A stretch of 64,000 bases of DNA from Roseomonas sp. HF4 (GTDB lineage Bacteria > Pseudomonadota > Alphaproteobacteria > Acetobacterales > Acetobacteraceae), in assembly GCF_005222755.1 (NCBI RefSeq), contig NZ_STGD01000015.1, positions 1-64,000 of the forward strand, read 5' to 3'. The position numbers and the translations under genes are program-made. This document shows, one piece after another, positions 46,359 through 64,000 of this stretch (its first letter is position 1; each line of letters begins with the position of its first letter). The notes below the pieces were generated by a model. It worked only from the letters and a program-made list of their open reading frames with translations, searched no databases and had not been told where the DNA came from.

Positions 46359-47006
46359 TCATCGCGGCGGCCGCAGCGGGAGGGCCGGTGCCATGGCCGG
46401 CGTCAGCGGGAAGGCGGACAGGCGCTCGCGCAGTGTCCCGACCGCGGGCGCGGGTTCCGGCGTGGCGTCGCGGGACGACCAGCCCATCGCCTCGGCCCGC
46501 CAGCCGAGCAGCGCCAGCAGCGGGCCGCCGGGCGCCGCGCGCGGCAGGCAGGGCGCGGCGTCCGGGCTCGGCAACCCCGTCTCGACCGCGGCGCCCTCGG
46601 CCAGCACGGCGTCATGCCCGGCGAGCAGCAGGAGGATCGCCTCGCGCCCCGGTTCCGTCGCTTCCGCCACGATGCCGAGGCCGTCCACCAGGGCGCCGGC
46701 CCCGACCAGTGCACCATCGAGCAGCAGCCCCTGCCCGGCAGGCACCAGCAGGTCCTGTCGCGGCGCACCGTCGGCGAGGGCGCCGGCGCGGATCCGCACC
46801 AGCGGCCCGGCGAGCGCGACGCGCCGGATGTCGGCCACGCGCTGGAAGGGCGCCGCCGTGCCGGACACCGCGATGACGAGATCGCCGGTGGACAGCGCCT
46901 CCACCGGCCTCTCGCCGGCCGGCGTCAGCACGAGCGTGCCGGTGGGCAGGCCGCTTTCCGGCAAGGTCGGCGTCACGTCGTCTCCCGCATCGCGGCGATC
47001 GGCCAT
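46359..47006 (-). CDS. Hint_2-domain protein lacking the N-terminal cysteine
   Basis: About 215 residues. The pattern LVLTPAGERPVEALSTGDLV, VRIRAGALADGAPRQDLLVP and GLLLDGALVGAGALVDGLG matches the Hint_2 core of the protein at 41235. The position of the catalytic Cys (CFAAGTRI there) is TGTLV here, and no RTX repeats precede it, so self-cleavage is unlikely. ATG 47006 is chosen; GTG 47021 is the alternative. Function unknown. Confidence 0.65.
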   Translation of the reverse strand: MADRRDAGDDVTPTLPESGLPTGTLVLTPAGERPVEALSTGDLVIAVSGTAAPFQRVADIRRVALAGPLVRIRAGALADGAPRQDLLVPAGQGLLLDGALVGAGALVDGLGIVAEATEPGREAILLLLAGHDAVLAEGAAVETGLPSPDAAPCLPRAAPGGPLLALLGWRAEAMGWSSRDATPEPAPAVGTLRERLSAFPLTPAMAPALPLRPPR

Positions 47007-47049
47007 GCCGGCCAGCGCCACGTCACTTCGCGGCAGGCCGGGCCGGCCG

Positions 47050-49451: not shown

Positions 49452-49537
49452 CGGGTGCCCTCCCGGCCGGTAGCGGCCGAGGCCGCGCACCACGATGGGC
49501 GAGCATCAGGTGGCGCGCAACCGGTGGCGGCGCGCCG

Positions 49538-49705: not shown

Positions 49706-50326
49706 CTAGTCGCGCCGCGTCAGAAGGCGGAGCTTCTCCAACGCTACACGCTCGCTTTCCTTATGGTCGATCGTCCCGGCGAACCGCCCCGACGCGTCAA
49801 GCAGGAAGATGCTGGCGGAATGGTCCATCGTGTAGCCGCCGCCGTCCACCGGTACGCGCCGGTAGTAGACGCGGAAGCTCTGGGCGACCCGCGCAATCTC
49901 GGCCTCGGTGCCCGACAGGCCGGTGATCCGACGGTCGAAGGCTTCCAGGTAGCCGGCCATCGCCTGCGGCGTATCGCGCTCGCTGTCGACGCTCACGAAC
50001 AGCCAGTGAACCCGGTCCGCCTCGGCGCCCATGGCCTCGATGAAGCCCGTCATCTCGGTGAGGGTGGTCGGACAGACATCGGGGCAGTACGTGAAGCCGA
50101 AGAACACCGCCGTCGGCCGGCCGCGGAAGTCGCGCTCCGTCACCGCGCGGCCGCGGTGGTCGGTCAGGCTGAAGGGCCCGCCGATCGCCAATGTCTGTGG
50201 CCCGGTCGCGACGCGCGGCGGCGCCAGCGGACCATCGGAGACCAGCCACCCGCCGGTGGTGGCCAGCAGCAGAAAGCCCACGACGCCAACGGCGCCCCAG
50301 GCAACCCAACGGATGATGCGGAGCAT
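49706..50326 (-). CDS. SCO1/SenC-family copper chaperone
   Basis: A 206-residue membrane-anchored thioredoxin-fold protein: N-terminal segment VAWGAVGVVGFLLLAT, then FFGFTYCPDVCPTTLTEMTG with the Cu-binding Cys81 and Cys85, and MDHSASIFLLDASG with the third ligand His. It delivers copper to cytochrome c oxidase or acts as thiol reductase. ATG 50326 fits the signal-anchor start. It lies seven bases after the PCu(A)C gene, the classic partner in CuA assembly. Confidence 0.93.
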   Translation of the reverse strand: MLRIIRWVAWGAVGVVGFLLLATTGGWLVSDGPLAPPRVATGPQTLAIGGPFSLTDHRGRAVTERDFRGRPTAVFFGFTYCPDVCPTTLTEMTGFIEAMGAEADRVHWLFVSVDSERDTPQAMAGYLEAFDRRITGLSGTEAEIARVAQSFRVYYRRVPVDGGGYTMDHSASIFLLDASGRFAGTIDHKESERVALEKLRLLTRRD

Positions 50327-50333
50327 TGTCGCC

Positions 50334-50831
50334 TCAATGGCCCTGGTGCGGCCCGGTGCCGCGCGCACCCGGCGCATCGACGGCCAATTCGACCGTGATC
50401 CGCCCGGCGCGCTCGAACACCAGCGTCACCGGCACGCGAGCGCCTTGCTGGAAGCCGCCCTGCGGCCCGATCAGCATCAGGTGCAGACCGCCGGGCGCGA
50501 GCCGGACCTCCCCGCCCGGCGGCAGCGGGATGCCGCCGGCAATCGGGCGCATGCGCATGATGCCGTCAGTGACGGACATCTCGTGCATCTCGACGCGCGC
50601 GGCGCGCGGCGTCTCGGCGGCGACCAGGCGATCCGGCGCGGCGCCGGTGTTGCGGATGACCATGTAGGCGGCGGCGGTGGGCGCCGCAGCACCGACGGCG
50701 CGCGTCCAGGGATGGTCGATGGCCAGGTCCCCGGCACGGAAATCGTGCGCGGCGACCGGGGTGCCCAGGAAGGGCAGCGGGACGAAGGCGGCGCCGGTCA
50801 TCAGGACCGCGCGCAGAAGGGTGCGACGCAT
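50334..50831 (-). CDS. Periplasmic copper chaperone PCu(A)C
   Basis: A 165-residue protein: Sec signal ending near TPVAAHD, cupredoxin-like fold. The Cu(I)-binding ligand set is present: Met82-His83-x-Met85 in EMHEMSVTDG, the later Met residues MRM, and His117-x-Met119 in GLHLMLIGP. It loads Cu into the CuA site together with SCO. ATG 50831 is the first start that gives a signal peptide. Confidence 0.92.
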   Translation of the reverse strand: MRRTLLRAVLMTGAAFVPLPFLGTPVAAHDFRAGDLAIDHPWTRAVGAAAPTAAAYMVIRNTGAAPDRLVAAETPRAARVEMHEMSVTDGIMRMRPIAGGIPLPPGGEVRLAPGGLHLMLIGPQGGFQQGARVPVTLVFERAGRITVELAVDAPGARGTGPHQGH

Positions 50832-50883
50832 GGAAGGATACTCCGACAAGGATGGAACAGCCCCGCGCCAGGCGGGGCGGGCT

Positions 50884-51276
50884 TCAGCCGAGGATCGGAG
50901 CGGCAGGCGGTGCGCGGGCCGGCGGCGGCGCCCGCGCCGGCGGCAGGGGAGATGCGCCGGCGACCGCGGCGCGGGGCGCGGCCAGCGCCGCCCAGGCCGG
51001 CATCGGCAGCACGAGTGGGGCCGGCGGCGGCGCATCCGCGGCATCGGGCAGGCGGCACAGCGGGCAATGCGTCGCGGCCGTGGCGTCCGGCGCCTGCTCG
51101 GGCGCCTCCGGTGCGGGCAGGCCGGACGGCAGGCACAGGGTCGCGCGCAGCATCGCGTCGAAAGCGGCCCGGTCCATCGCCGCGAGAGCCGGCAGCGGCG
51201 CCAGCAGCCGCGCTACCATGGCCAGAAGCAGCAGCGCGGAGATCGGCGCGCGCAGCTCGGCCCAAGCCCGCCTCAT
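50884..51276 (-). CDS. DUF2946-type protein
   Basis: A 130-residue protein with an N-terminal hydrophobic segment ([20 protein letters not shown]) and a short [11 protein letters not shown] Cys-x-x-Cys motif, then Pro/Ala-rich sequence. This matches DUF2946, found near copper genes; function is not known. It shares ATGA with the YnfA gene (51273-51276), so it is co-translated with it. Confidence 0.7.
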
Positions 51277-51599
51277 GCTGCGCGTGGCCCCCACAGGATA
51301 ATCGCCGCGCCAGCCAGGGCAACGGCACCGCCGATCAGGTCCCAGCGATCGGGCGCGAAGCCCTCGACCACCCGCAGCCATACAAGTGTCGCCGCGATGT
51401 AGACGCCGCCATAGACCGCATAGGCGCGGCCGGAGTGCTCCACCTCGACCAGGGTCAGCAACCACGCGAAGGCGATCAACGCAACGACGCCCGCGGCTGC
51501 CCACAGGGCCGAATGGCCCAGCCGCAGCCACGCCCAGAAGGCGAAGCAGCCGGCAATCTCCGCCAGCGCCGCCGCGGCGTAGATCGCGACCGTCCTCAT
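51273..51599 (-). CDS. YnfA-family (UPF0060) small membrane protein
   Basis: A 108-residue protein with four membrane segments. [20 protein letters not shown] near 12-31 and [20 protein letters not shown] near 61-80 are the family hallmarks; the C-terminal [14 protein letters not shown]-type motif is present as [20 protein letters not shown]. YnfA proteins are SMR-like; transport is suspected but not settled. Confidence 0.93.
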
Positions 51600-51661: not shown

Positions 51662-52093
51662 TCAGGGATTCTCCGCGCGCCCGTCGCGGCGCAGCTCGAC
51701 ATGCAGGTTCGCCCCGGTGGTGCGGCCGGTGCGCCCCACCACGCCCAAATCCTGGCCCGCCGCGACCGGACGCCCAGCCGCCACGTCGGGCGCGAAGCGT
51801 GCCAGGTGGGCGTATCGAGCGCGCGAGCCATCGGCGTGCTCGATCTCGATCATCAGGCCGTAGTCGTAGTAGCGGCCGGCGAAGACCACCACGCCGTCGC
51901 TCGGCGCCACCACGGGCGTGCCGATCGGCGCGCGGATGTCCACGCCGGGATGCGGCCTGCCGTGGCGCGAGCCGAAGCCGGAGGAGAATTCGCCTGCGAC
52001 CGGCATGGTCGCTGGACAGGGGGCTGCGAGCGCGGCGGACCCGGTGCCGAGAACGAGCGCGACACCCAGGATCAGGGAGGGGCGATGGATCAT
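51662..52093 (-). CDS. M23-like peptidase domain protein, one catalytic His missing
   Basis: A 143-residue exported protein (signal [15 protein letters not shown]) consisting only of a LytM/peptidase M23 domain. Zinc ligands His48 and Asp52 ([14 protein letters not shown]), His96 (YAHLARF) and His131 are there, but the first His of the HxH pair is Asn129 (GANLHVEL). It may be a weak enzyme or a binding protein such as a LytM activator. ATG 52093 keeps the signal peptide. It is in the run of genes after dsbA. Confidence 0.82.
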
Positions 52094-52139
52094 GGCGCGG
52101 TCCGTGCCTTGACCTGCGCCGGAAGGCAACCCCGGAGCC

Positions 52140-52808
52140 TCAGCCACGCGGCGTCGTGCCCGGCGGCAGCAGCGGGCGGACCAGCGCGGAGAAGCGCTCG
52201 AAGCTCTGCACGCCGCGATGCAACTGCCCGTTGATCACGAAGGACGGGGTCGCGTTGACGCCCGACTCGCGCTCGCCCTGGAGCCGCATCAGGATGATCG
52301 GGTCGGTGAAGCCGCGGTCGGTCATGCAGGCGTCGATCCGCGCCGCCGGGATCCCGGCGAGCGTGCCGGCGCGGCGCAGCCAGGTGCGCGCATCCGGGCT
52401 GTGCGCCCAGGCCTCCTTGTTCGCGTAGAGCGTTGAGATCAGCGCCTCGTAGCGCTCCGGTCCGCCGCAGTGGACCATCGCCGCGGCTTCGAGCGCGACG
52501 CGGTCGAGCGGGAAGTCGCGCATCACGAAGCGTACCAGGCCCGGCTCGATGAAGGTCGTGCGGATGCGCGGAAAGATCGTGGTGTGGAAGTTCGCGCAAT
52601 TGCCGCAGGTCAGGGAGTGGTACTCGATGACCGCCACCGGCGCGTCGGCGCGGCCGATGATGCGCTCGCCCGGCAGGGGGCGCGGCGTGTCGGGGCCGGG
52701 TGCCGTCGGCTCGAAGGCCTGGGGCCCGGGCGCCTGGGCGAATGCGGCCGCCGCGGGAATGGAGATTGCGACGGCGAGCGCCGCCCGGCGGGTTGTGGCG
52801 TGGGACAT
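52140..52808 (-). CDS. DsbA-like thioredoxin-fold disulfide protein
   Basis: A 222-residue exported protein with an N-terminus like a Tat or Sec signal (TTRRAALAVAISIPAAAAFA). The active site is Cys68-Gly-Asn-Cys71 (YHSLTCGNCANFH), and NATPSFVINGQ supplies the cis-Pro. It resembles the DSBA_2/thioredoxin_4 group. Its place beside CcdA suggests that the membrane protein feeds it electrons. ATG 52808 has CCGGAGGAA upstream. Confidence 0.87.
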   Translation of the reverse strand: MSHATTRRAALAVAISIPAAAAFAQAPGPQAFEPTAPGPDTPRPLPGERIIGRADAPVAVIEYHSLTCGNCANFHTTIFPRIRTTFIEPGLVRFVMRDFPLDRVALEAAAMVHCGGPERYEALISTLYANKEAWAHSPDARTWLRRAGTLAGIPAARIDACMTDRGFTDPIILMRLQGERESGVNATPSFVINGQLHRGVQSFERFSALVRPLLPPGTTPRG

Positions 52809-52837
52809 CGGTAGTTCCTCCGGTTCAGGGATGGTGG

Positions 52838-53341
52838 TCACAGGGGCTGCGCCTGTGGCGCCGGCGCGCGGAAGCTGGTGAGCACCAGCAGCGTGACGCC
52901 GCAGACGATGGCGACATCGGCCATGTTGAAGGTCGGCCAGTGCCAGCCGCCGTAATGCGCGTCGATGAAGTCAGTGACCGCGCCGATGCGCAGGCGGTCG
53001 GCGATGTTGCCGATCGCCCCGCCGATGATGAGGCCGATCGCCGTCGCCTCGGTCCGGTTGGCCGCGCGGCGCAGCCACATCAGCAGCCAGGCGACCACGG
53101 CGAGCTTGATGCCCACCAGCAGCCAGACAGCGCCGGCGGCGCTATCGGCGAACATCCCGAAGGTGACGCCGGTGTTGAAGCCAAGCCGCAGGTTCAGCAC
53201 CGGCAGCAGCGTGATGCCCTCGCTGTAGGGCGGCCAGAGCGCCTCCAGCGCCCAGGCCTTGGTCGCCTGGTCGATGACCGCTGCGATCGGCGCCGCGATC
53301 AGGCCGAAGCGCCGCAGCGCGCGCGGGGCGGGCGTGGTCAT
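52838..53341 (-). CDS. lspA: Lipoprotein signal peptidase II
   Basis: A 167-residue aspartyl protease with four membrane segments. GGAIGNIADRLRIGAVTDFI near 108-127 and FNMADVAIV near 138 provide the catalytic Asp124 and Asp142. It cleaves lipoprotein signals after diacylglyceryl transfer. It follows ccdA with ATGA overlap (53338-53341). This copy is next to lnt, ccdA and metal genes in the island-like region, so a second housekeeping lspA may exist elsewhere. Confidence 0.93.
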   Translation of the reverse strand: MTTPAPRALRRFGLIAAPIAAVIDQATKAWALEALWPPYSEGITLLPVLNLRLGFNTGVTFGMFADSAAGAVWLLVGIKLAVVAWLLMWLRRAANRTEATAIGLIIGGAIGNIADRLRIGAVTDFIDAHYGGWHWPTFNMADVAIVCGVTLLVLTSFRAPAPQAQPL

Positions 53342-54060
53342 CCCAGCCGTGCCAGCCATGGAAATGCCTCCAGGATCCAGATGGCGAGACGGGTCATCTC
53401 GCCGGTTGCGATGGCCAGGCCCGCCGCCACCATGATGGCGCCGCTCGCGACCTGCAGGATGCGCCCCAGCCGCCCGAGCCGCCGCGCACGGGCCATCGCT
53501 GCCGGCAGGTAGAAGGCCGCGAGCAGGAACGGCACGCCGAGGCCGAGCGCATAGGCGGCGAGCAGCCCCACCCCCGCGCCGGGTGTGAGCGCCGCCGCCG
53601 TCAGCACGCCGGCCAGCACCGGCCCGATGCACGGCGTCCAGCCGAAGCCGAAGGCGACGCCGATCAGCGTGGCGGAGACCGGGCCGCCGCCCTCGCCCGG
53701 CGGCTTGAAGCGCAGGTCGCGCATCAGCGGCGCCACGCGCAGCAGGCCCATCTGCACGAGGCCCATCGCCGCGATCAGCAGACCGGCAACGACGGTGAGC
53801 TCGTTGGACCAGCGCCGCAGCAGCCCGCCGATGGCGGTCGCCCCCAGGCCCAGCAGCACGAAGACCAGCCCGAAGCCGAGCACGAAGAAGGCCGACAGGC
53901 GCAGCGCCCGCCAGCGTTCCGCGCGCGCGGTCGCAAGATCCGTCCCCGCCACCCAGGCGACATAGCCCGGCACCAGCGGCAGCACGCAGGGCGACAGGAA
54001 GGACACCAGCCCCCCGCCGAAGGCCAGCACCAGGCCGAACAGGGTGAGGTCGATCGTCAT
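53338..54060 (-). CDS. ccdA: CcdA/DsbD-type transmembrane electron carrier
   Basis: A 240-residue protein with six membrane segments. LVSFLSPCVLPLVPGYVAWV (Cys25) and FGFGWTPCIGPVLAGVL (second Cys) are the redox pair on opposite faces of the bundle. It moves reducing equivalents from cytoplasmic thioredoxin to periplasmic thiol proteins, for cytochrome c maturation or for the DsbA-like protein two genes on. Overlaps lnt and lspA by ATGA at both ends. Confidence 0.92.
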   Translation of the reverse strand: MTIDLTLFGLVLAFGGGLVSFLSPCVLPLVPGYVAWVAGTDLATARAERWRALRLSAFFVLGFGLVFVLLGLGATAIGGLLRRWSNELTVVAGLLIAAMGLVQMGLLRVAPLMRDLRFKPPGEGGGPVSATLIGVAFGFGWTPCIGPVLAGVLTAAALTPGAGVGLLAAYALGLGVPFLLAAFYLPAAMARARRLGRLGRILQVASGAIMVAAGLAIATGEMTRLAIWILEAFPWLARLG

Positions 54061-55559
54061 GCGCGCCGCCCTGCGGCCAGCGCGAGCCCCGCCAGCGCCG
54101 CGACGCCGATCGCGAAAGGCAGGTCGCCGAAGCGCGCATAAAGCGTGCCGCCGGCCAGCGCCGCCGGCAGCGGCAGGTTCAGCACGCCCTCGGTCGCGAG
54201 CGGCAGCCGCGCGCGCTCGCGCCCCATCGCGTCGGTCACCAGGGAGATGCCGCTGTTCGCCACGCGCACCAGCGGCAGGCCGAGCTCGATGGCGCGCAGC
54301 CGGGCGGCAAGGGCATGCTGGTATGGGCCCCAGGAGGTGCCGAACCAGGCATCATTGGTCACCGTCAGGATCCAGGCCGGCGCCGGGCCTTGCGCCGGCA
54401 GCGTGGTGGGGAAGATCGCCTCGTAGCAGATCAGCGGCCAGAACGGCGGGAGCCCGGCGACGCGCATCGCCCGGCGCGGCGGGCCGGGGATGAAGTCCAC
54501 CGTCCCGGCGGTGAGTTTCGGCAGGTCCGTGAGCAGCCTGCGGAGCGGCTGGTATTCGCCGAAGGGCACCAGCTGGATTTTGTCGTAGGCGGCGGTGATC
54601 TCGCCGGTGTCGTCGAGCGCGACCAGGCTGTTGAGCAGCGCCAGGCCGCCATCGTCCGCGATGGTCCGCCTTACCGCGCCGGTCAGCAGCGCGCCGCCCG
54701 GCGGAATGATGCGCGCGACCGCCGCGCGGATCGCCGGCGCCTCGGCGAGGAGATAGGGCACGGCGCTTTCCGGCCAGACGATATGCGTCGGCGCTTGGCC
54801 ATCCGCCGCCGGCGCCGTGCTCAGCGCCAGCAGCTGGCCGAGGATGCGCTCGCGCTCGCCCTCGGCCCATTTCAGGTTCTGGGGGATGTTCGGCTGCACC
54901 AGGCGCAGCCGGATGCTCGGGGCGTCGCCGGGCATCGCATCGGCAAGGCGCGCCGTGCCCCAGGCCCCGGGCAGGGCGATGATGACCACCGCGACCGCCG
55001 CGGGCCAGACGCGCCGCTGCCGCACCGCCACCGCCGCCAGCACCGACGCGAGCACAGCGAGCAGCCCGAGGCCATGGATGCCGACCAGCGCCGCCGCCTG
55101 CAGCCCGGCATCGCTGCCGCCCCAGGAATGGCCGGCGATGTTCCACGGAAAGCCGGTCAAAACCATGCCGCGCAGCCATTCGCCCGCGACCCAGCACGCG
55201 GCCAGCGCCAGGGCGAGCGGCACGCCGCACGCGCGGCCCGCCAGCAGCCGCGCGGCTGCGACCGAGACTGCGGGGAACAGCGCAAGCCCGGCGCTGAGCG
55301 CGGCCAGCGCCGGCAGCGCCAGCGCACCGAAGCGTGCCGCATCCACGCTGAAGGCCTCGGTGATCCAGGACAGGCCGACCAGGAACGATCCCAAGCCGAA
55401 CAGCCAGCCGAGCACGAAGGCGCCGCGCAAGGACGCCGTCCGCTCAAGCACGAACCACAGGCCGCCGAAGGCCACCACGCCAGCGGGCGCGATGTGCAGT
55501 GGCGCCAGCGCAATGGCGCTGAGCGCTCCGAGCCCGAGCGCGGTGGCGCCATAGGCCAT
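54057..55559 (-). CDS. lnt: Apolipoprotein N-acyltransferase
   Basis: A 500-residue protein: six to seven N-terminal membrane segments, then a nitrilase domain with HIVWPESAVPYLLAE (Glu), YDKIQLVPFGEYQPLRRLL (Lys) and FWPLICYEAIFP (Cys nucleophile), and a last membrane segment. It puts the third acyl chain on lipoproteins. The start is uncertain: ATG 55559 is used; ATG 55703, which overlaps the previous stop (TGATG), would add 48 residues. Confidence 0.9.
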   Translation of the reverse strand: MAYGATALGLGALSAIALAPLHIAPAGVVAFGGLWFVLERTASLRGAFVLGWLFGLGSFLVGLSWITEAFSVDAARFGALALPALAALSAGLALFPAVSVAAARLLAGRACGVPLALALAACWVAGEWLRGMVLTGFPWNIAGHSWGGSDAGLQAAALVGIHGLGLLAVLASVLAAVAVRQRRVWPAAVAVVIIALPGAWGTARLADAMPGDAPSIRLRLVQPNIPQNLKWAEGERERILGQLLALSTAPAADGQAPTHIVWPESAVPYLLAEAPAIRAAVARIIPPGGALLTGAVRRTIADDGGLALLNSLVALDDTGEITAAYDKIQLVPFGEYQPLRRLLTDLPKLTAGTVDFIPGPPRRAMRVAGLPPFWPLICYEAIFPTTLPAQGPAPAWILTVTNDAWFGTSWGPYQHALAARLRAIELGLPLVRVANSGISLVTDAMGRERARLPLATEGVLNLPLPAALAGGTLYARFGDLPFAIGVAALAGLALAAGRRA

Positions 55560-55702: not shown

Positions 55703-56170
55703 TCAGTGCCAATGCGCCCGAAGCGACACGACCACTGCGCCTGCGCGTTCGAAGCGCAGCGTGACGCGGATCTCGTCGCCGAGCGCGAGCGGTACCTGCA
55801 GGTCGCGCAGCAGAAGGTGCCGTCCGCCGGGCTCCAGGGCGACGACGTCACCGGCTGGGATGACGAAGCCCTCGGTCACGGCCCGCGCACCGCCGGAGGC
55901 GGACGGGTCTGGTTCTCGCAGTTCCACGGCGGCCGCGCCGGACGACGTGGCGGAGAGCAGCCTCTCCGCCTCACTGCCCCGGTTGCGGATCGTCACGAAG
56001 CCGAAGGACAGGCGCTGGTCGTTGTCGGCGGCCTTCGCCCAGGCTCCGGTCAGGAGCAGGCAGCCCGCCTGAACATCCTGGGCCGCGGCCGGGCCCGACA
56101 GGATCAGGCGCCACGCGAGGAGGACAGCGGGCATCAACCAGCGCCGCCCGAGGATGTTGCCGGGCATCAT
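55703..56170 (-). CDS. PCu(A)C-family protein lacking the usual copper ligands
   Basis: A 155-residue exported protein (hydrophobic segment then GPAAAQD) with the PCu(A)C fold (LSFGFVTIRNRGSEAERLLS near 54-73, ALEPGGRHLLLRDLQVPLAL). At the site where the copper protein at 50334 has MHEM it reads VELREPDP, and HLM becomes His118-Leu-Leu120. So the Met/His Cu(I) site is lost except for one His. It may bind another metal or have a structural role beside the P-type ATPase. Confidence 0.82.
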   Translation of the reverse strand: MMPGNILGRRWLMPAVLLAWRLILSGPAAAQDVQAGCLLLTGAWAKAADNDQRLSFGFVTIRNRGSEAERLLSATSSGAAAVELREPDPSASGGARAVTEGFVIPAGDVVALEPGGRHLLLRDLQVPLALGDEIRVTLRFERAGAVVVSLRAHWH

Positions 56171-56222
56171 GCGGTCGCCTTTGTAATGTTCCGTGTCACC
56201 CAGGGACCCACCACGAAGGACA

Positions 56223-58517
<2,295 letters not shown>

Positions 58518-58544: not shown

Positions 58545-58575
58545 GGTATGGCACTTCCAGTGACTGGAGGTTCAA
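58545..58575 (-). promoter_or_regulatory. MerR-family type promoter of the ATPase gene
   Basis: On the minus strand, a -35 TTGAAC (58570-58575) is followed by exactly 19 bases and then CATACC (58545-58550). The spacer holds the dyad ACCTCCAG / CTGGAAGT. An overlong 19-base spacer with a dyad in it is the hallmark of MerR, ZntR, CadR and CueR targets. The gene start is 28 bases further on. No MerR-type gene is in the window. Confidence 0.8.
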
Positions 58576-59788: not shown

Positions 59789-60253
59789 TCAGGCGGGTTG
59801 CGACCCGTTGAACCGCATGAAGGACCGGTGTGGACCGCTACCGAAGGCGATCACGTCGTAGCTGTCGACCGGCGCGCCGGGCACTTCCATGCCGGGCGAG
59901 CCGACCGGCATCTCCGGCACGGCGAGGCCGCGGACGCCGGCAGGGCGTTCGGCCAGCAGGCGGCGGATGGCGATGGCGGGCACGTGGCCTTCGAGCACGA
60001 AGCCCTCGACCTCGCCGGCATGGCAGGACAGCAGGTCTGCCGGTGTCCCGAGGCGACGCCGAACCGGCGCGACCGAGGGCACCACCTGGTCCACCACGGT
60101 GAAGCCCTCGGCGCGCAGATGCGCGACCCAGCCGGTGCAGCAGCCGCAGTTCGGGTCACGCCAGACGCTGACGCGCGTGGGTGCGGCGGCGTGCGTGGCT
60201 CTGGCGGTGGCGAGAAGCGCCACGGATCCCAGCAGCAAGCGGCGTTTCTGCAT
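59789..60253 (-). CDS. DUF411 metal-binding protein
   Basis: A 154-residue exported protein: signal LLLGSVALLATARATHA, then DPNCGCCTGWVAHLRAEGF with Cys36, Cys38 and Cys39, LSCHAGEVEGFVLEGHVPAI and VPEMPVGSPGMEVPG. This is the complete DUF411 pattern, associated with copper resistance. The Cys, His and Met sites would bind Cu(I). ATG 60253 starts the signal; the extension to 60334 is unsupported. Confidence 0.9.
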   Translation of the reverse strand: MQKRRLLLGSVALLATARATHAAAPTRVSVWRDPNCGCCTGWVAHLRAEGFTVVDQVVPSVAPVRRRLGTPADLLSCHAGEVEGFVLEGHVPAIAIRRLLAERPAGVRGLAVPEMPVGSPGMEVPGAPVDSYDVIAFGSGPHRSFMRFNGSQPA

Positions 60254-60380
60254 GTGACGGTTCCTCTCCCTCTTGCCGCAGCAGTCAGATAGCACTCCGC
60301 CTTCGAAGTAAATGGGCGTAGTGCCCCAGATCACCAGACGCGCCGCCGCGCCGATCGTGCGCAGCGGCGCCGCTCGGGCG

Positions 60381-61028
60381 TCAGGGTCGGATGATGCGCG
60401 CGTAGTCGCCGCTGGTCCGCAGCGTTACGGTCAGATCGCGGTCGGAGCGGTTGCGCCAGAACCAGCCATGGGTGCCGTCGAAGCGGGCGATGAGTTCGCC
60501 CTGCTCCCCGGAGGAGCCGCGGCCGTTCCGATAGCTGTATGTCGAGTTTCGCCCGGCGTTGGGCGGCTCGCCATGCATGTCGTAATTGACCGGGCCGGTG
60601 GCGGTCCAATTGAAGTTGACCCGCGCACCACTGCGCATGTCGAGCTTTACCTCGATGCCCTGGTTCGGCCGGAGCGTGATGATGGTCTCGTCGGTTCGCG
60701 CGGCGACGGCCGGCAGCGCCGTCTGAGCGGCGGCCGGGCGGATGAACAGCCCTGCGAAGATCGCGCCAGGCAGGCTCGAACGCGGGCCTGGCGTTGCGGC
60801 CGGTGGCGCCCGATCGGCTGCAGCCTCGGCCGCCAACTGCATCTTCAACTCGCCCATCTCGGTCAGGCCGAGGGGACGGCCAACGCCGGTCGGGTCGATG
60901 CCGTACTCAGCGGGCAGGACCACGGTGATGAGGATGGCCACGGCGGCCGCGGCTGCGATAGCGGTGGAGCGAAGCAGCTGCTTTGAGGAAGGCAGTTCCG
61001 CGCGGGTCGGCAGGTCGGTGTTGTACAT
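60381..61028 (-). CDS. Transmembrane anchor protein (unknown function)
   Basis: A 215-residue protein: short cytoplasmic N-terminus (MYNTDLPTRAELPSSKQLL), one membrane segment (TAIAAAAAVAILITVVLPAE) and a periplasmic domain (NQGIEVKLDMRSGARVNFNW, DGTHGWFWRNRSDRDLTVTL). The N-terminal sequence is like that of proteins called transmembrane anchor protein found next to HupE/UreJ genes. It starts 12 bases after the HupE-like stop, so they are likely a pair. Confidence 0.72.
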   Translation of the reverse strand: MYNTDLPTRAELPSSKQLLRSTAIAAAAAVAILITVVLPAEYGIDPTGVGRPLGLTEMGELKMQLAAEAAADRAPPAATPGPRSSLPGAIFAGLFIRPAAAQTALPAVAARTDETIITLRPNQGIEVKLDMRSGARVNFNWTATGPVNYDMHGEPPNAGRNSTYSYRNGRGSSGEQGELIARFDGTHGWFWRNRSDRDLTVTLRTSGDYARIIRP

Positions 61029-61040
61029 GTCAGGGATCCC

Positions 61041-61763
61041 TCAAGAGACGAACCAGCCGGTGAGCTGATAGCCGATCAGCACAAACCCGGCGGTCATCAT
61101 GACGACGTTGGCGGTGTAGGCATGGCGCAGGAAACTCGGGCTGCGGCGCCAGAAGCCCATGGCGATAAGGATGACGGCGAGCGCCAGCAACTGCCCGACC
61201 TCGACGCCGACGTTGAATGCCAGCAGGTTCGGCAGCAGGCCATCGGGCGAGACGTTGTAGTCGAGGATCTTCGAGGACAGGCCGAAGCCGTGGCAGAAGC
61301 CGAAGACCAGCGTCGCCACCTTGGTGTTCGGCTGGTAGCCGAGCCAGCGCTGGAAGGCGCCGAGATTGTCGAGCGCCTTGTAGACGATCGAGAAGCCGAT
61401 GATGGCATCGATGATGTAGCTGTTGATACCGATGCCAAAATACACGCCGGCCAGCATGGTCGTGGAGTGGCCTAGCGCGAAAAGGCTCACATAGATCGCG
61501 ATGTGCTGCAGCCGGTACAGGAAGAAAATCACGCCGAACAGGAACAGGATGTGGTCGTAGCCGGTGACCATGTGCTTGGCGCCGAGATAGACGAAGGGCA
61601 GCAGCTGGATGCCCGATATTTCCTGGATGTAGCCCTTGTCGCCCTCGGCGACGGCATGGGCGAGCGCCTCGGTGGTGGCGCCCAGCAGGGTCAGGCCGAG
61701 GACGCACAGGCATAGCCATGGAATTCGCGACAGGCGCACGTCGCCCGCGATGATGGGATTCAT
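61041..61763 (-). CDS. HupE/UreJ-family membrane protein
   Basis: A 240-residue protein with seven or so membrane segments. The hallmarks are AKHMVTGYDHILFLFGVIFF near 61-80 (H and D ligands), FALGHSTTMLAGVYFG near 95-110 and FGFCHGFGLSSKIL near 155-168. HupE/UreJ proteins are presumed Ni or Co permeases; in metal islands the substrate may differ. Probably cotranscribed with the anchor protein gene. Confidence 0.85.
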   Translation of the reverse strand: MNPIIAGDVRLSRIPWLCLCVLGLTLLGATTEALAHAVAEGDKGYIQEISGIQLLPFVYLGAKHMVTGYDHILFLFGVIFFLYRLQHIAIYVSLFALGHSTTMLAGVYFGIGINSYIIDAIIGFSIVYKALDNLGAFQRWLGYQPNTKVATLVFGFCHGFGLSSKILDYNVSPDGLLPNLLAFNVGVEVGQLLALAVILIAMGFWRRSPSFLRHAYTANVVMMTAGFVLIGYQLTGWFVS

Positions 61764-61822
61764 GAGTGAGACCGCTCAGGTGAGAAAGGAAGGAACTGTC
61801 CGAAGACGGCGGCATGGGCAGC

Positions 61823-62137
61823 TCAGCCGAGCCCGCGGGGCGGCCGTTCCATCCTGCTGTTTGGCCCCGGCGCGAGGCCCTCCTGCCCCAGGATTGCGAG
61901 CCCGGCACGCGGCATCCATCGCGGCGCCAAGGAGGCCGGACGCACGGTTACCGCCTCATGCACATGGTCTGTGATCGCATGATCGACGGCATCGTGGGGT
62001 CCGCGCAGGTCCTGATCGTCCGTGGCGTGGATATGGTCGGCAGCACCGTGCATCGACACCGCGGCGAGGGGCGGCGCGAAGGTAACCACCAGCAGTGCCA
62101 CGAGCAGCAGCCTGACGATGTGTCGAAACCCCCTCAT
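61823..62137 (-). CDS. His-rich small exported protein
   Basis: About 104 residues: signal or anchor (IVRLLLVALLVVTFAPPLAA) then a His/Asp-rich stretch (MHGAADHIHATDDQ, GPHDAVDHAITDHVHEAVTV) and a Pro/Arg tail. No family recognised. The His spacing suggests periplasmic metal buffering, in line with the neighbours. Start at 62137 is preferred to 62155 because the signal peptide begins near there. Confidence 0.5.
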   Translation of the reverse strand: MRGFRHIVRLLLVALLVVTFAPPLAAVSMHGAADHIHATDDQDLRGPHDAVDHAITDHVHEAVTVRPASLAPRWMPRAGLAILGQEGLAPGPNSRMERPPRGLG

Positions 62138-62181
62138 GCCGCGCTGCTGCTCCAATCCGCCATCCCATGGTGACTAGCAGA

Positions 62182-62209
62182 TTGACGGTATCCATACCAG
62201 GGGGATAGG
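62182..62209 (+). promoter_or_regulatory. Promoter and G-tract operator before the CsoR/RcnR-type gene
   Basis: TTGACG (62182-62187) and GATAGG (62204-62209) are 16 bases apart and could be -35 and -10. A G5 tract with AT-rich flanks (ATACCAGGGGGATAGG, 62194-62209) overlaps the -10. CsoR/RcnR/FrmR repressors bind G/C-tract sites flanked by AT, so autorepression is likely. Transcription would start near the ATG at 62218. Confidence 0.5.
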
Positions 62210-62217
62210 ACAGGCCC

Positions 62218-62496
62218 ATGAGCGAACAGCATGTCCACGGATCCCACCCCGAGATCGCCAAACGGCTGAAGCGGGCCGAGGGTCATCTGCGCAGCGTGGT
62301 TGAGATGATCAACGCGGGGCGACCTTGCCTCGACATCGCTCAGCAACTGCATGCGGTTGAACGCGCGGTCAGCGAGGCCAAGCGCAGCTTGATCCGCGAC
62401 CACCTTGACCACTGCCTGGATCACGCCGCGGAGGAGACCGGCGCCGAGCGGCGCGCCGCAATGGAGGCGTTCAAGCAGATCACGAAATACCTGTGA
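62218..62496 (+). CDS. CsoR/RcnR-family metal-sensing repressor
   Basis: A 92-residue all-helical DUF156 protein. Ligand positions are Cys37, His62 and Cys66 (INAGRPCLDIAQQL, DHLDHCLDH), the Cys-His-Cys set of copper-sensing CsoR, whereas RcnR has a third His. It also has three N-terminal His (5, 7, 10), more like RcnR. It should release its operator on metal binding and derepress the MFS exporter that follows 25 bases later. Confidence 0.9.
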   Translation: MSEQHVHGSHPEIAKRLKRAEGHLRSVVEMINAGRPCLDIAQQLHAVERAVSEAKRSLIRDHLDHCLDHAAEETGAERRAAMEAFKQITKYL

Positions 62497-62521
62497 TGCT
62501 CTTCCTATCAGGAGCGGCGAA

Positions 62522-63847
62522 ATGCTGAGTCCGCTGGCCGACCGCACCTATCGCCACCTGTTCGGCGCGCAGATCCTGTCGCTGATCGGCACCGGCCTCA
62601 TGACCGTGGCACTCGGCCTGCTCGCCTTCGACCTCGCCGGCGCCAATGCCGGCGCGGTCCTGGGCACGGCACTGGCGATCAAGATGGTGGCCTATGTCGG
62701 CATCGCGCCAGTCGCCGGCGCCTTCGTGCACCTGGTGCCGCGGCGCGCGCTGCTGGTGGCGCTCGACCTGCTGCGCGCCGCCGTCGCGCTGGCGCTGCCC
62801 TTCGTCACCGAGATCTGGCAGGTCTATCTGCTGATCGGCCTGCTGCAGGCCTGCTCGGCCGCCTTCACGCCGACCTTCCAGGCCACCATCCCTGACGTGC
62901 TGCCGGATGAGGCGCAATACACCCGCGCTCTGTCGCTCTCTCGCCTCGCCTACGACGTGGAGGCACTGACCAGCCCGATGCTGGCCGCGGCCCTGCTTTC
63001 CGTCATCGGCTTCCACTGGCTGTTCGCGGGCACGACGCTCGGCTTCATCGCCTCGGCGGCGCTGGTGGTCTCGGTGCTGCTCCCCTCGCCCAAGCCGCCT
63101 TCGACGCAGGAGAGCGCCTGGGGGCGCACGACGCGCGGCGCACGGCTCTATCTCGCCGCGCCGCGGCTGCGCGGGCTGCTGGCGCTGAACCTGGCGGTCG
63201 CCGCGGCCGGGGCGATGGTCATCGTCAACACGGTGGTACTGATACAGGCGGGGCTCGGGCTGGGTGCAGGGCAATTGGCATGGACGCTGGCGGCCTATGG
63301 CTTCGGCTCGATGGTCGCCGCACTCGCGTTGCCGCGTGTGCTGGATCGCGTCGGCGACCGCCCGGTGATGCTGGCGGGCGCCGTGATCCTGGTGGCAGGC
63401 CTGCTCGCGGGGCCGCTGACGCTGCAACACTGGGGGCTCGTGCTGGCGCTCTGGGCGCTGCTTGGCCTCGGCAATGGGCTGGTGCTGACGCCCTCGGGGC
63501 GACTGCTACGGCGGTCTTCTGACGCGGGCGACCGTCCCGCGCTGTTCGCGGCGCAATTCGCGCTCAGCCACGCCTGCTGGCTGCTCGCCTATCCGCTGGC
63601 GGGGTGGCTGGGGGCAGCGGCGGGGCTGGCGCCGACCTTCCTGCTATTGGCGGCGCTGGCGGCTACCGGCACATGGCTCGCCATCCGGCTGTGGCCGGCG
63701 GAGGCCGAGCGCGCCGCGCCGCACGACCACCACGGCCTGCCGGCGGACCACCCGCATTTGAACGGCGCGCAGCCCCTGCCGGACGGCGGCTTTCGCCACG
63801 TCCATGCCCCGGTCGCCGATACACTGCACGCGATGCGCGGCGGCTGA
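62522..63847 (+). CDS. MFS transporter with His-rich tail, probable metal exporter
   Basis: A 441-residue protein with twelve membrane segments (first: LFGAQILSLIGTGLMTVALG). The C-terminal tail is rich in His (HDHHGLPADHPHLNGAQ, FRHVHAPVADTLH). This layout is like the nickel exporter NreB. With the metal repressor just upstream, a role in metal efflux is likely; which metal is open. ATG 62522 has AGGAG ahead; the longer frame to 62405 shadows the repressor gene. Confidence 0.83.
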   Translation: MLSPLADRTYRHLFGAQILSLIGTGLMTVALGLLAFDLAGANAGAVLGTALAIKMVAYVGIAPVAGAFVHLVPRRALLVALDLLRAAVALALPFVTEIWQVYLLIGLLQACSAAFTPTFQATIPDVLPDEAQYTRALSLSRLAYDVEALTSPMLAAALLSVIGFHWLFAGTTLGFIASAALVVSVLLPSPKPPSTQESAWGRTTRGARLYLAAPRLRGLLALNLAVAAAGAMVIVNTVVLIQAGLGLGAGQLAWTLAAYGFGSMVAALALPRVLDRVGDRPVMLAGAVILVAGLLAGPLTLQHWGLVLALWALLGLGNGLVLTPSGRLLRRSSDAGDRPALFAAQFALSHACWLLAYPLAGWLGAAAGLAPTFLLLAALAATGTWLAIRLWPAEAERAAPHDHHGLPADHPHLNGAQPLPDGGFRHVHAPVADTLHAMRGG

Positions 63848-63863
63848 AGCGCCCATCATCGCC

Positions 63864-64000
63864 GTGCCCGACCTTGCCGCCTATGCGGGCCTGTTCGCCA
63901 TCGCCTTCGCCGCCGCGACACTGATCCCGGCGCAGTCCGAGATCGCGCTGGCCAGCCTGCTTGTCGCCGGGCAGCAGCCCGTGGTCCTGCTGCTGGCGGT
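63864..64000 (+). CDS. YqaA-family membrane protein, N-terminal part (cut by window end)
   Basis: GTG 63864 opens a frame (PDLAAYAGLFAIAFAAATLI then PAQSEIALASLLVAGQ) that runs off the end. It resembles the first membrane segments of YqaA proteins of the DedA/SNARE-associated superfamily. It starts 16 bases after the MFS stop and may be part of the same operon. Confidence 0.6.
   Translation, partial: MPDLAAYAGLFAIAFAAATLIPAQSEIALASLLVAGQQPVVLLLA

Follow-up and report, generated by a model that had tools for sequence, protein, structure and literature searches.

Enzymes acting at the N-terminus of lipoproteins have been met before among accessory genes of metal resistance: accessory lspA genes are known from metal operons, and accessory lit and lgt genes from copper operons. 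In mobile elements of Listeria and Enterococcus (Armbruster 2019, cited in PMC7387801 and PMC8275575), lit2 is part of a copper operon carried by a transposon or plasmid (PMC7387801); it is induced by copper, and lit2 and lgt2 share a transcript with copper determinants (PMC8275575). In metal-tolerant Mesorhizobium, Zn and Cd raise the expression of a ccdA gene beside cadA more than 4-fold, and Zn raises that of a PbrC-like signal peptidase II more than 3-fold (PMC3668242). In E. coli, copper interferes with the acylation of lipoproteins, an effect that looks like loss of Lgt, and lnt is located at the cutE locus of copper tolerance (PMC6538781). Cells depleted of Lnt accumulate copper (PMC7387801), copper stops Lit activity (PMC8275575), and a dsbD-related copper-tolerance gene is reported from E. 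coli (PMC3668242, citing Fong 1995). Here we describe a module in Roseomonas sp. HF4, found in a stretch of 64,000 nucleotides (contig NZ_STGD01000015.1, positions 1 to 64,000; the window), in which a second lnt gene is coupled to ccdA, lspA, a dsbA-like gene and an M23 gene inside a metal island. In our best reading the module would be a Gram-negative counterpart of the copper-inducible lit2/lgt2 operons of Listeria.

The two systems resemble each other in placing accessory lipoprotein N-terminus enzymes in a metal operon, on horizontally spread DNA, beside housekeeping copies. They differ in that the Gram-positive elements encode Lit2, an intramolecular transacylase, and Lgt2, whereas the island combines Lnt, LspA and thiol-redox genes in a Gram-negative host, behind a MerR-type promoter motif; family annotation of the operon genes revealed neither Lit nor Lgt. 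The PbrBC pair of lead resistance consists of the signal peptidase II gene lspA and the undecaprenyl-PP phosphatase gene pbrB. No PbrB-type phosphatase is among the annotated operon genes; one lies near a different lnt, on plasmid L039 (below). In Cupriavidus pMOL30 and Mesorhizobium metallidurans, PbrC/LspA is likewise an additional signal peptidase II encoded in a metal locus together with a P1B ATPase, and in Mesorhizobium it is induced by metal (PMC3668242). An apolipoprotein N-acyltransferase is nowhere mentioned in the text of PMC3668242, whereas the island lspA is part of an overlapping ccdA-dsbA-lnt chain. A preliminary description of the locus, made from the sequence, had compared the set to lspA-type genes of lead and cadmium operons, and the Mesorhizobium data for both PbrC and ccdA bear the comparison out.

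In ScsABCD, too, a DsbD-type membrane reductant and a DsbA-like partner are linked to copper tolerance. ScsB acts in copper tolerance as the DsbD-type membrane reductant; in its place the island has a short CcdA, coupled to lipoprotein enzymes, and Thioredoxin_4 is the only domain identified in the DsbA-like protein. The E. coli cut loci brought up the same two functions, lnt and a dsbD-related gene, through copper tolerance, but as scattered housekeeping genes, whereas the island would hold accessory copies in one operon. We found no description of accessory lnt genes in metal islands in the open-access literature, as judged by titles and the beginnings of abstracts.

Second copies of lnt and lspA with intact active sites

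The preliminary description had recognized lnt, ccdA, lspA and a DsbA-like gene as a coupled set on the minus strand. All four were found in place and every family match was confirmed (Table 1). The coupling, also correct, reaches one gene further than described, to the M23 gene: successive genes of the minus-strand chain lnt-ccdA-lspA-dsbA-like-M23 overlap at each junction, by ATGA (lnt/ccdA), by TGATG with the lspA start inside the ccdA stop (ccdA/lspA), by GTGA (lspA/dsbA) and by 8 nt (dsbA/M23). The set does lie among metal genes, with a PCu(A)C protein and a heavy-metal P-type ATPase upstream and YnfA, DUF2946, PCu(A)C and Sco proteins downstream. The gene order is conserved in four other genomes of the genus (in one of them, G011, the contig ends within lnt) and in six further second-copy loci of the same family.

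The earlier suggestion of an accessory set depended on housekeeping copies elsewhere in the genome, and these exist. The Lnt model has seven matches in the genome (G000), two of which are full length and over the cut-off: the island copy and a gene at C9:70344-71510, in the order phoH-ybeY-corC-lnt. The two lspA matches are the island copy and a gene at C10:117901-118359, directly after ileS. Island and housekeeping proteins are 44% (Lnt) and 46% (LspA) identical. The preliminary description would have been refuted by a genome with a single lnt and a single lspA, both in the island and constitutive, and this genome is not of that kind.

The catalytic triad of Lnt is Glu-Lys-Cys. Alignment assigns it to E264, K327 and C378 of the island protein, together with E335 and E380. 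The triad residues are retained in all 30 module rows with letters at these positions (one further row is gapped) and in all 55 housekeeping rows. LspA enzymes have two catalytic Asp motifs, and the island translation holds both, as NIADR (DR) and FNMAD. The ccdA translation has the cysteine motifs SPCVLP and TPCIGP. Comparison with four relatives gave omega values of 0.07-0.40 for lnt, ccdA, lspA, dsbA and M23, which are under purifying selection. Intact catalytic residues and these omega values together argue that the island enzymes are maintained. Family and residues identify the island Lnt as a putative apolipoprotein N-acyltransferase, and N-acylation is its predicted activity.

Horizontal spread and repeated recruitment

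The island was compared with that of another species (G010). In tag, which adjoins the island, identity is ~85%; the long match starts at 49,517, and 1-kb bins as far as 78 kb are mostly 90-99.8% identical, the exceptions being the partial first bin (86.5%) and the bins at 59 kb (89.6%), 75 kb (81.2%) and 76 kb (89.9%). A core control around the housekeeping lnt gave 72-89% between the same two genomes. The metal module has spread horizontally. The block of HupE, transmembrane-anchor, CsoR-like and MFS genes (60180-64000) matches G010 with 98.6-99.8% identity over 61-64 kb and is absent from G018, which suggests a later, separate insertion. Past the window the island goes on with a multicopper oxidase, another P1B ATPase, an LTXXQ protein, a histidine kinase and an RND pump. 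Genome G020 has the amidase-tag flank but not the module; since this comparison did not reach the far side of the island, we claim no clean empty site. Calls of tRNA genes inside lnt of loci L047 and L048 were rejected as GC-rich false positives.

The distribution of the extra lnt is patchy. Two Lnts over the cut-off are present in 5 of 35 genomes of the genus (own genome included, some genomes incomplete), at least two at E <= 1e-40 in 13 of 299 sampled genomes of the order, and two or more in 10 of 387 sampled genomes of the class. Both larger surveys include the own genome, and the total is 22 multi-lnt genomes. Only the best candidates per genome were scored (four in the class survey, six in the order survey), so copy counts may be slightly low. 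Neighbourhoods were fetched for 20 of the 22 (G379 and G668 were left out). The extra lnt lies in a module with lspA and copper or redox genes in 15 of the 22 (G000, G003, G010, G011, G018, G549, G551, G563, G574, G623, G641, G138, G248, G336 and G396). The mobility proposed in the preliminary description is thus upheld as to spread and patchiness; as to an element of its own, contig C15 yielded no tyrosine integrase, and no search was made for conjugation genes or the right end of the island.

Among 72,556 plasmid records, 195 have an Lnt match at E <= 1e-20, mainly from Rhodobacterales, and 102 of the 195 were typed as conjugative. Contexts were read in seven regions; the lower-ranked matches, with contexts unread, include very large replicons and Gammaproteobacteria. 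In six of the seven regions lnt has several of the following nearby: lspA, ccdA, dsbA/dsbB, sco, PCu(A)C, CDF or P1B pumps, DUF411, L,D-transpeptidases and M23 proteins. In the seventh stretch (L040) the pump-ccdA-lspA part was found but no lnt. The stretch read of L044 has few metal genes, namely MntP and a P1B ATPase at its end; L045 lacks a P1B ATPase but encodes a CDF and an Nramp transporter. The set recurs with metal genes both on plasmids and in islands, in support of the preliminary description.

A genome scan with eight module Lnts gave 80 named loci, which by their neighbours comprise 22 module loci, 54 housekeeping loci and 4 unclassified ones (L056, L063, L075 and L076). A module call was defined as at least two module families and no housekeeping marker, so the partner counts are partly circular; the absence of loci holding both kinds of marker (0 of 80) is not. 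Partners in the 22 module loci are LspA (21), DsbA (20), PCu(A)C (19), Sco (18), M23 and DUF411 (17 each), DsbB, CDF and MerR (15 each), and P1B ATPase and CcdA (13 each). In the additional module loci of second-copy genomes lspA is present in 10 of 10.

In a tree of 119 Lnts, built by a quick search with SH-aLRT as the sole support measure and without rows below 380 aa (one module row was lost in this way), all 30 module rows belong to one of two clades, supported at 99 and 100. Clade A spans several orders and contains the window, Acetobacteraceae/Roseomonadaceae, a Geminicoccaceae plasmid, Rhizobium and Aquibium plasmids, Jiella and Mesorhizobium; clade B is Rhodobacterales. Since the module Lnts form two separate clades, lnt was recruited into metal modules at least twice.

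These counts bear on two other explanations. One holds that the cassette serves mainly the assembly of cytochrome c or CuA oxidase under metal stress, with lspA and lnt as passengers. Sco and PCu(A)C are CuA-assembly factors, and they occur in 18 and 19 of the 22 module loci. Yet no partner is more constant than lspA, present in 21 of 22 and in 10 of 10 module loci, lnt was recruited twice or more, lnt and lspA are under purifying selection, and it is a pump that heads the operon; we consider this explanation unlikely. According to the other, lspA and lnt are neutral duplicates hitchhiking with the pump genes. Both are common genes, and islands do acquire extra ones, but the overlapping operon order is retained in ten other genomes, the active sites are intact, omega is low, and the association arose independently in Rhodobacterales. 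Hitchhiking is disfavoured, and we regard it as highly improbable.

A further lnt, on the Roseomonas mucosa plasmid p3-AD3 (L039, 15821-25732), is beside ArsR, a P1B ATPase, an undecaprenyl-diphosphate phosphatase, CcmF and a DsbE-type protein. It clusters with the housekeeping Lnts of the family in the 119-Lnt tree and is perhaps the product of a third recruitment.

The M23/LytM protein has NLH, with Asn replacing the first His of the usual M23 motif HxH, in each of the 14 module loci inspected, which represent both Lnt lineages (the window, L043, L046-L048, L053, L074, L153, L154, L156, L158, L161, L166 and L175). It is possibly a non-catalytic LytM activator. Peptidoglycan genes ride along in plasmid modules as well: L041, L043 and L045 have L,D-transpeptidases, and L041 and L045 also PBP2 and cell-wall hydrolases.

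Predicted metal control and proposed role

MerR-family metal promoters have a 19-20 bp spacer with a dyad between the -35 and -10 elements. In all 11 family loci compared, a motif of this type (Table 1) precedes the ATPase ATG by 61-62 bp, while the flanking sequences differ. The pattern occurs at 58 sites in 754 kb of module sequence, spread over 30 of the 40 loci, and at none in the 66 housekeeping loci (1.15 Mb). It was written after the family sites had been viewed, including L042, L166, L170 and L175, which are therefore not independent; the other Rhodobacterales sites and the 66 housekeeping loci provide the fairer test. In many clade B loci a site is found just before a run of sco-dsbB-dsbA-PCu(A)C-sco-M23-DUF411-ZIP-lspA-lnt. 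A MerR-family gene is located at contig position 66195-66599, its product 33-47% identical to four plasmid-borne MerR seeds. The operon is probably induced by metal, as predicted from the MerR-type promoter.

The operon would comprise 11 genes between 58517 and 49706, namely ATPase, PCu(A)C, lnt, ccdA, lspA, dsbA-like, M23, ynfA, DUF2946, PCu(A)C and sco, with the ATPase proposed as the first gene and sco as the last. The placement of lnt on the ATPase transcript is suggested by the common strand, by gaps no longer than ~145 bp and by the absence of a terminator: a scan from the ATPase to sco detected no credible one. A terminator called inside ccdA was dismissed as chance, because it lies in coding sequence and two were found where 3.7 were expected.

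Our favoured reading, held with moderate confidence, is that the module, having spread horizontally, would serve on induction by metal as a back-up both of lipoprotein maturation and of thiol chemistry in the periplasm. The metal-induced back-up of maturation and thiol reduction is suggested by the findings cited above (PMC6538781, PMC7387801, PMC8275575, PMC3668242). A MerR-family metal sensor would switch on the 11-gene operon in the transferred island when a toxic metal attacks periplasmic thiols and stalls lipoprotein maturation. Maturation would be vulnerable in that the lipobox cysteine is the substrate and the last enzyme, Lnt, uses a catalytic cysteine. The ATPase would export the metal, PCu(A)C and Sco would bind copper, and CcdA would pass electrons to the DsbA-like protein and Sco, re-reducing periplasmic thiols. 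The extra LspA and Lnt might then keep the cell's own lipoproteins cleaved, N-acylated and reaching the outer membrane.

The preliminary description had the set serving metal-handling lipoproteins, and a corresponding explanation is that LspA and Lnt mature dedicated substrates encoded in the same island. In some Rhodobacterales modules neighbours do look lipidated; the L,D-transpeptidase of L043 starts with a lipobox-like LAGC. In the island itself, however, a regular-expression lipobox scan found no credible lipoprotein in 49.5-78 kb, the only good candidate being at 91.9-92.9 kb, and PCu(A)C and Sco have no lipobox. Most of the nine matches were overlapping or out-of-frame open reading frames, set aside by eye, and a match in YnfA was dropped since this is a multi-spanning membrane protein. 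Service to island lipoproteins is thus not borne out, dedicated substrates appear quite unlikely to us, and the cell's own lipoproteins are the likelier clients.

Acylation itself could be the resistance if extra N-acylation removed the free alpha-amino group of lipoproteins, which would otherwise bind copper at the membrane, an idea put forward for Lit2 (PMC7387801). This would explain why Lnt, and not Lgt, is carried, and it fits the copper accumulation in Lnt-depleted cells (PMC7387801). The housekeeping Lnt, however, should N-acylate already, and acylation alone does not account for lspA, ccdA and dsbA; we find this explanation very doubtful.

Several observations weigh against the back-up reading. 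The genome has a single lgt match, on contig C8, outside the island, yet it was loss of Lgt, the first step, to which the copper block was likened (PMC6538781). The idea of a Cys-poor, metal-tolerant module Lnt was rejected: mean Cys per protein is 3.4 in module and 2.7 in housekeeping Lnts, and mean His 6.1 and 8.4, respectively (counted over the rows longer than 400 aa, which are 30 of the 31 module and all 55 housekeeping rows), the two sets differing in taxonomy and neither count being decisive. The promoter motif is missing from 10 of the 40 module loci, some of them incomplete. The pump scores as a Zn/Cd/Pb type, not as a copper type, so the inducing metal need not be copper. Finally, five of the 22 multi-lnt genomes (G095, G214, G295, G363 and G667) revealed no module marker near the extra lnt; the extra full-length copies outside any detected module are those of loci L163, L164, L167-L169 and L176-L181, several on short contigs or at contig ends.

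In a wider proposal, for and against which we see the chances as evenly balanced, lipoprotein maturation would be a Gram-negative metal-resistance trait. MerR-controlled cassettes, assembled at least two, perhaps three, times in alphaproteobacterial islands and plasmids, would provide an LspA-Lnt branch in reserve, together with thiol-redox power and enzymes of peptidoglycan, and so sustain outer-membrane biogenesis while metal disables the housekeeping route. If true, a layer of target protection would join pumping and sequestration, the usual account of metal resistance. Why E. coli lnt (cutE) is a copper-tolerance gene has been a puzzle for decades, and a transferable, apparently metal-regulated, repeatedly recruited lnt-lspA set makes the question directly testable.

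Features of the locus

Table 1. Genes and predicted promoter of the module and its surroundings (window positions)
Feature	Position	Strand	Evidence and remarks
DUF411 metal-binding protein	59789-60334	minus	PF04214
MerR-type metal-responsive promoter (predicted)	58545-58575	minus	TTGAAC, 19-bp spacer with dyad CTCCAGT-C-ACTGGAA, CATACC
HMA-domain P1B-type ATPase	56223-58517	minus	ZntA/CadA models nearest
PCu(A)C copper chaperone (upstream of lnt)	55703-56275	minus	PF04314, E 1.5e-23; start probably near 56170
lnt	54057-55559	minus	500 aa; TIGR00546, 292 bits (cut-off 132.9); Pfam LNT_N and CN_hydrolase
ccdA	53338-54060	minus	DsbD transmembrane-domain thiol reductant conduit, 240 aa; PF02683 DsbD_TM, E 1.5e-15
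lspA	52838-53338	minus	signal peptidase II; TIGR00077, 108.9 bits (cut-off 73.95); PF01252 Peptidase_A8, E 6e-37
DsbA-like periplasmic thioredoxin-fold protein	52140-52841	minus	CGNC motif; PF13462 Thioredoxin_4, E 1.6e-31
M23/LytM protein	51662-52147	minus	PF01551, E 1.2e-28; coupled to dsbA-like gene
YnfA/UPF0060 small membrane protein	51273-51599	minus	PF02694
DUF2946 protein	50884-51276	minus	PF11162, 24.7 bits (cut-off 23.7)
PCu(A)C copper chaperone (downstream)	50334-50930	minus	PF04314, E 1.2e-37; start probably near 50831
Sco1/SenC copper chaperone	49706-50377	minus	PF02630, E 3.3e-51; start probably near 50326

The top NCBIfam score of the P1B ATPase, 795.8 bits with NF008262, is under the cut-off of that model (1005), and the protein exceeds the subfamily cut-offs of TIGR01525 and TIGR01512. 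Elsewhere in the window, a Hint_2 domain protein is encoded at 46359-47021, beside ispDF.

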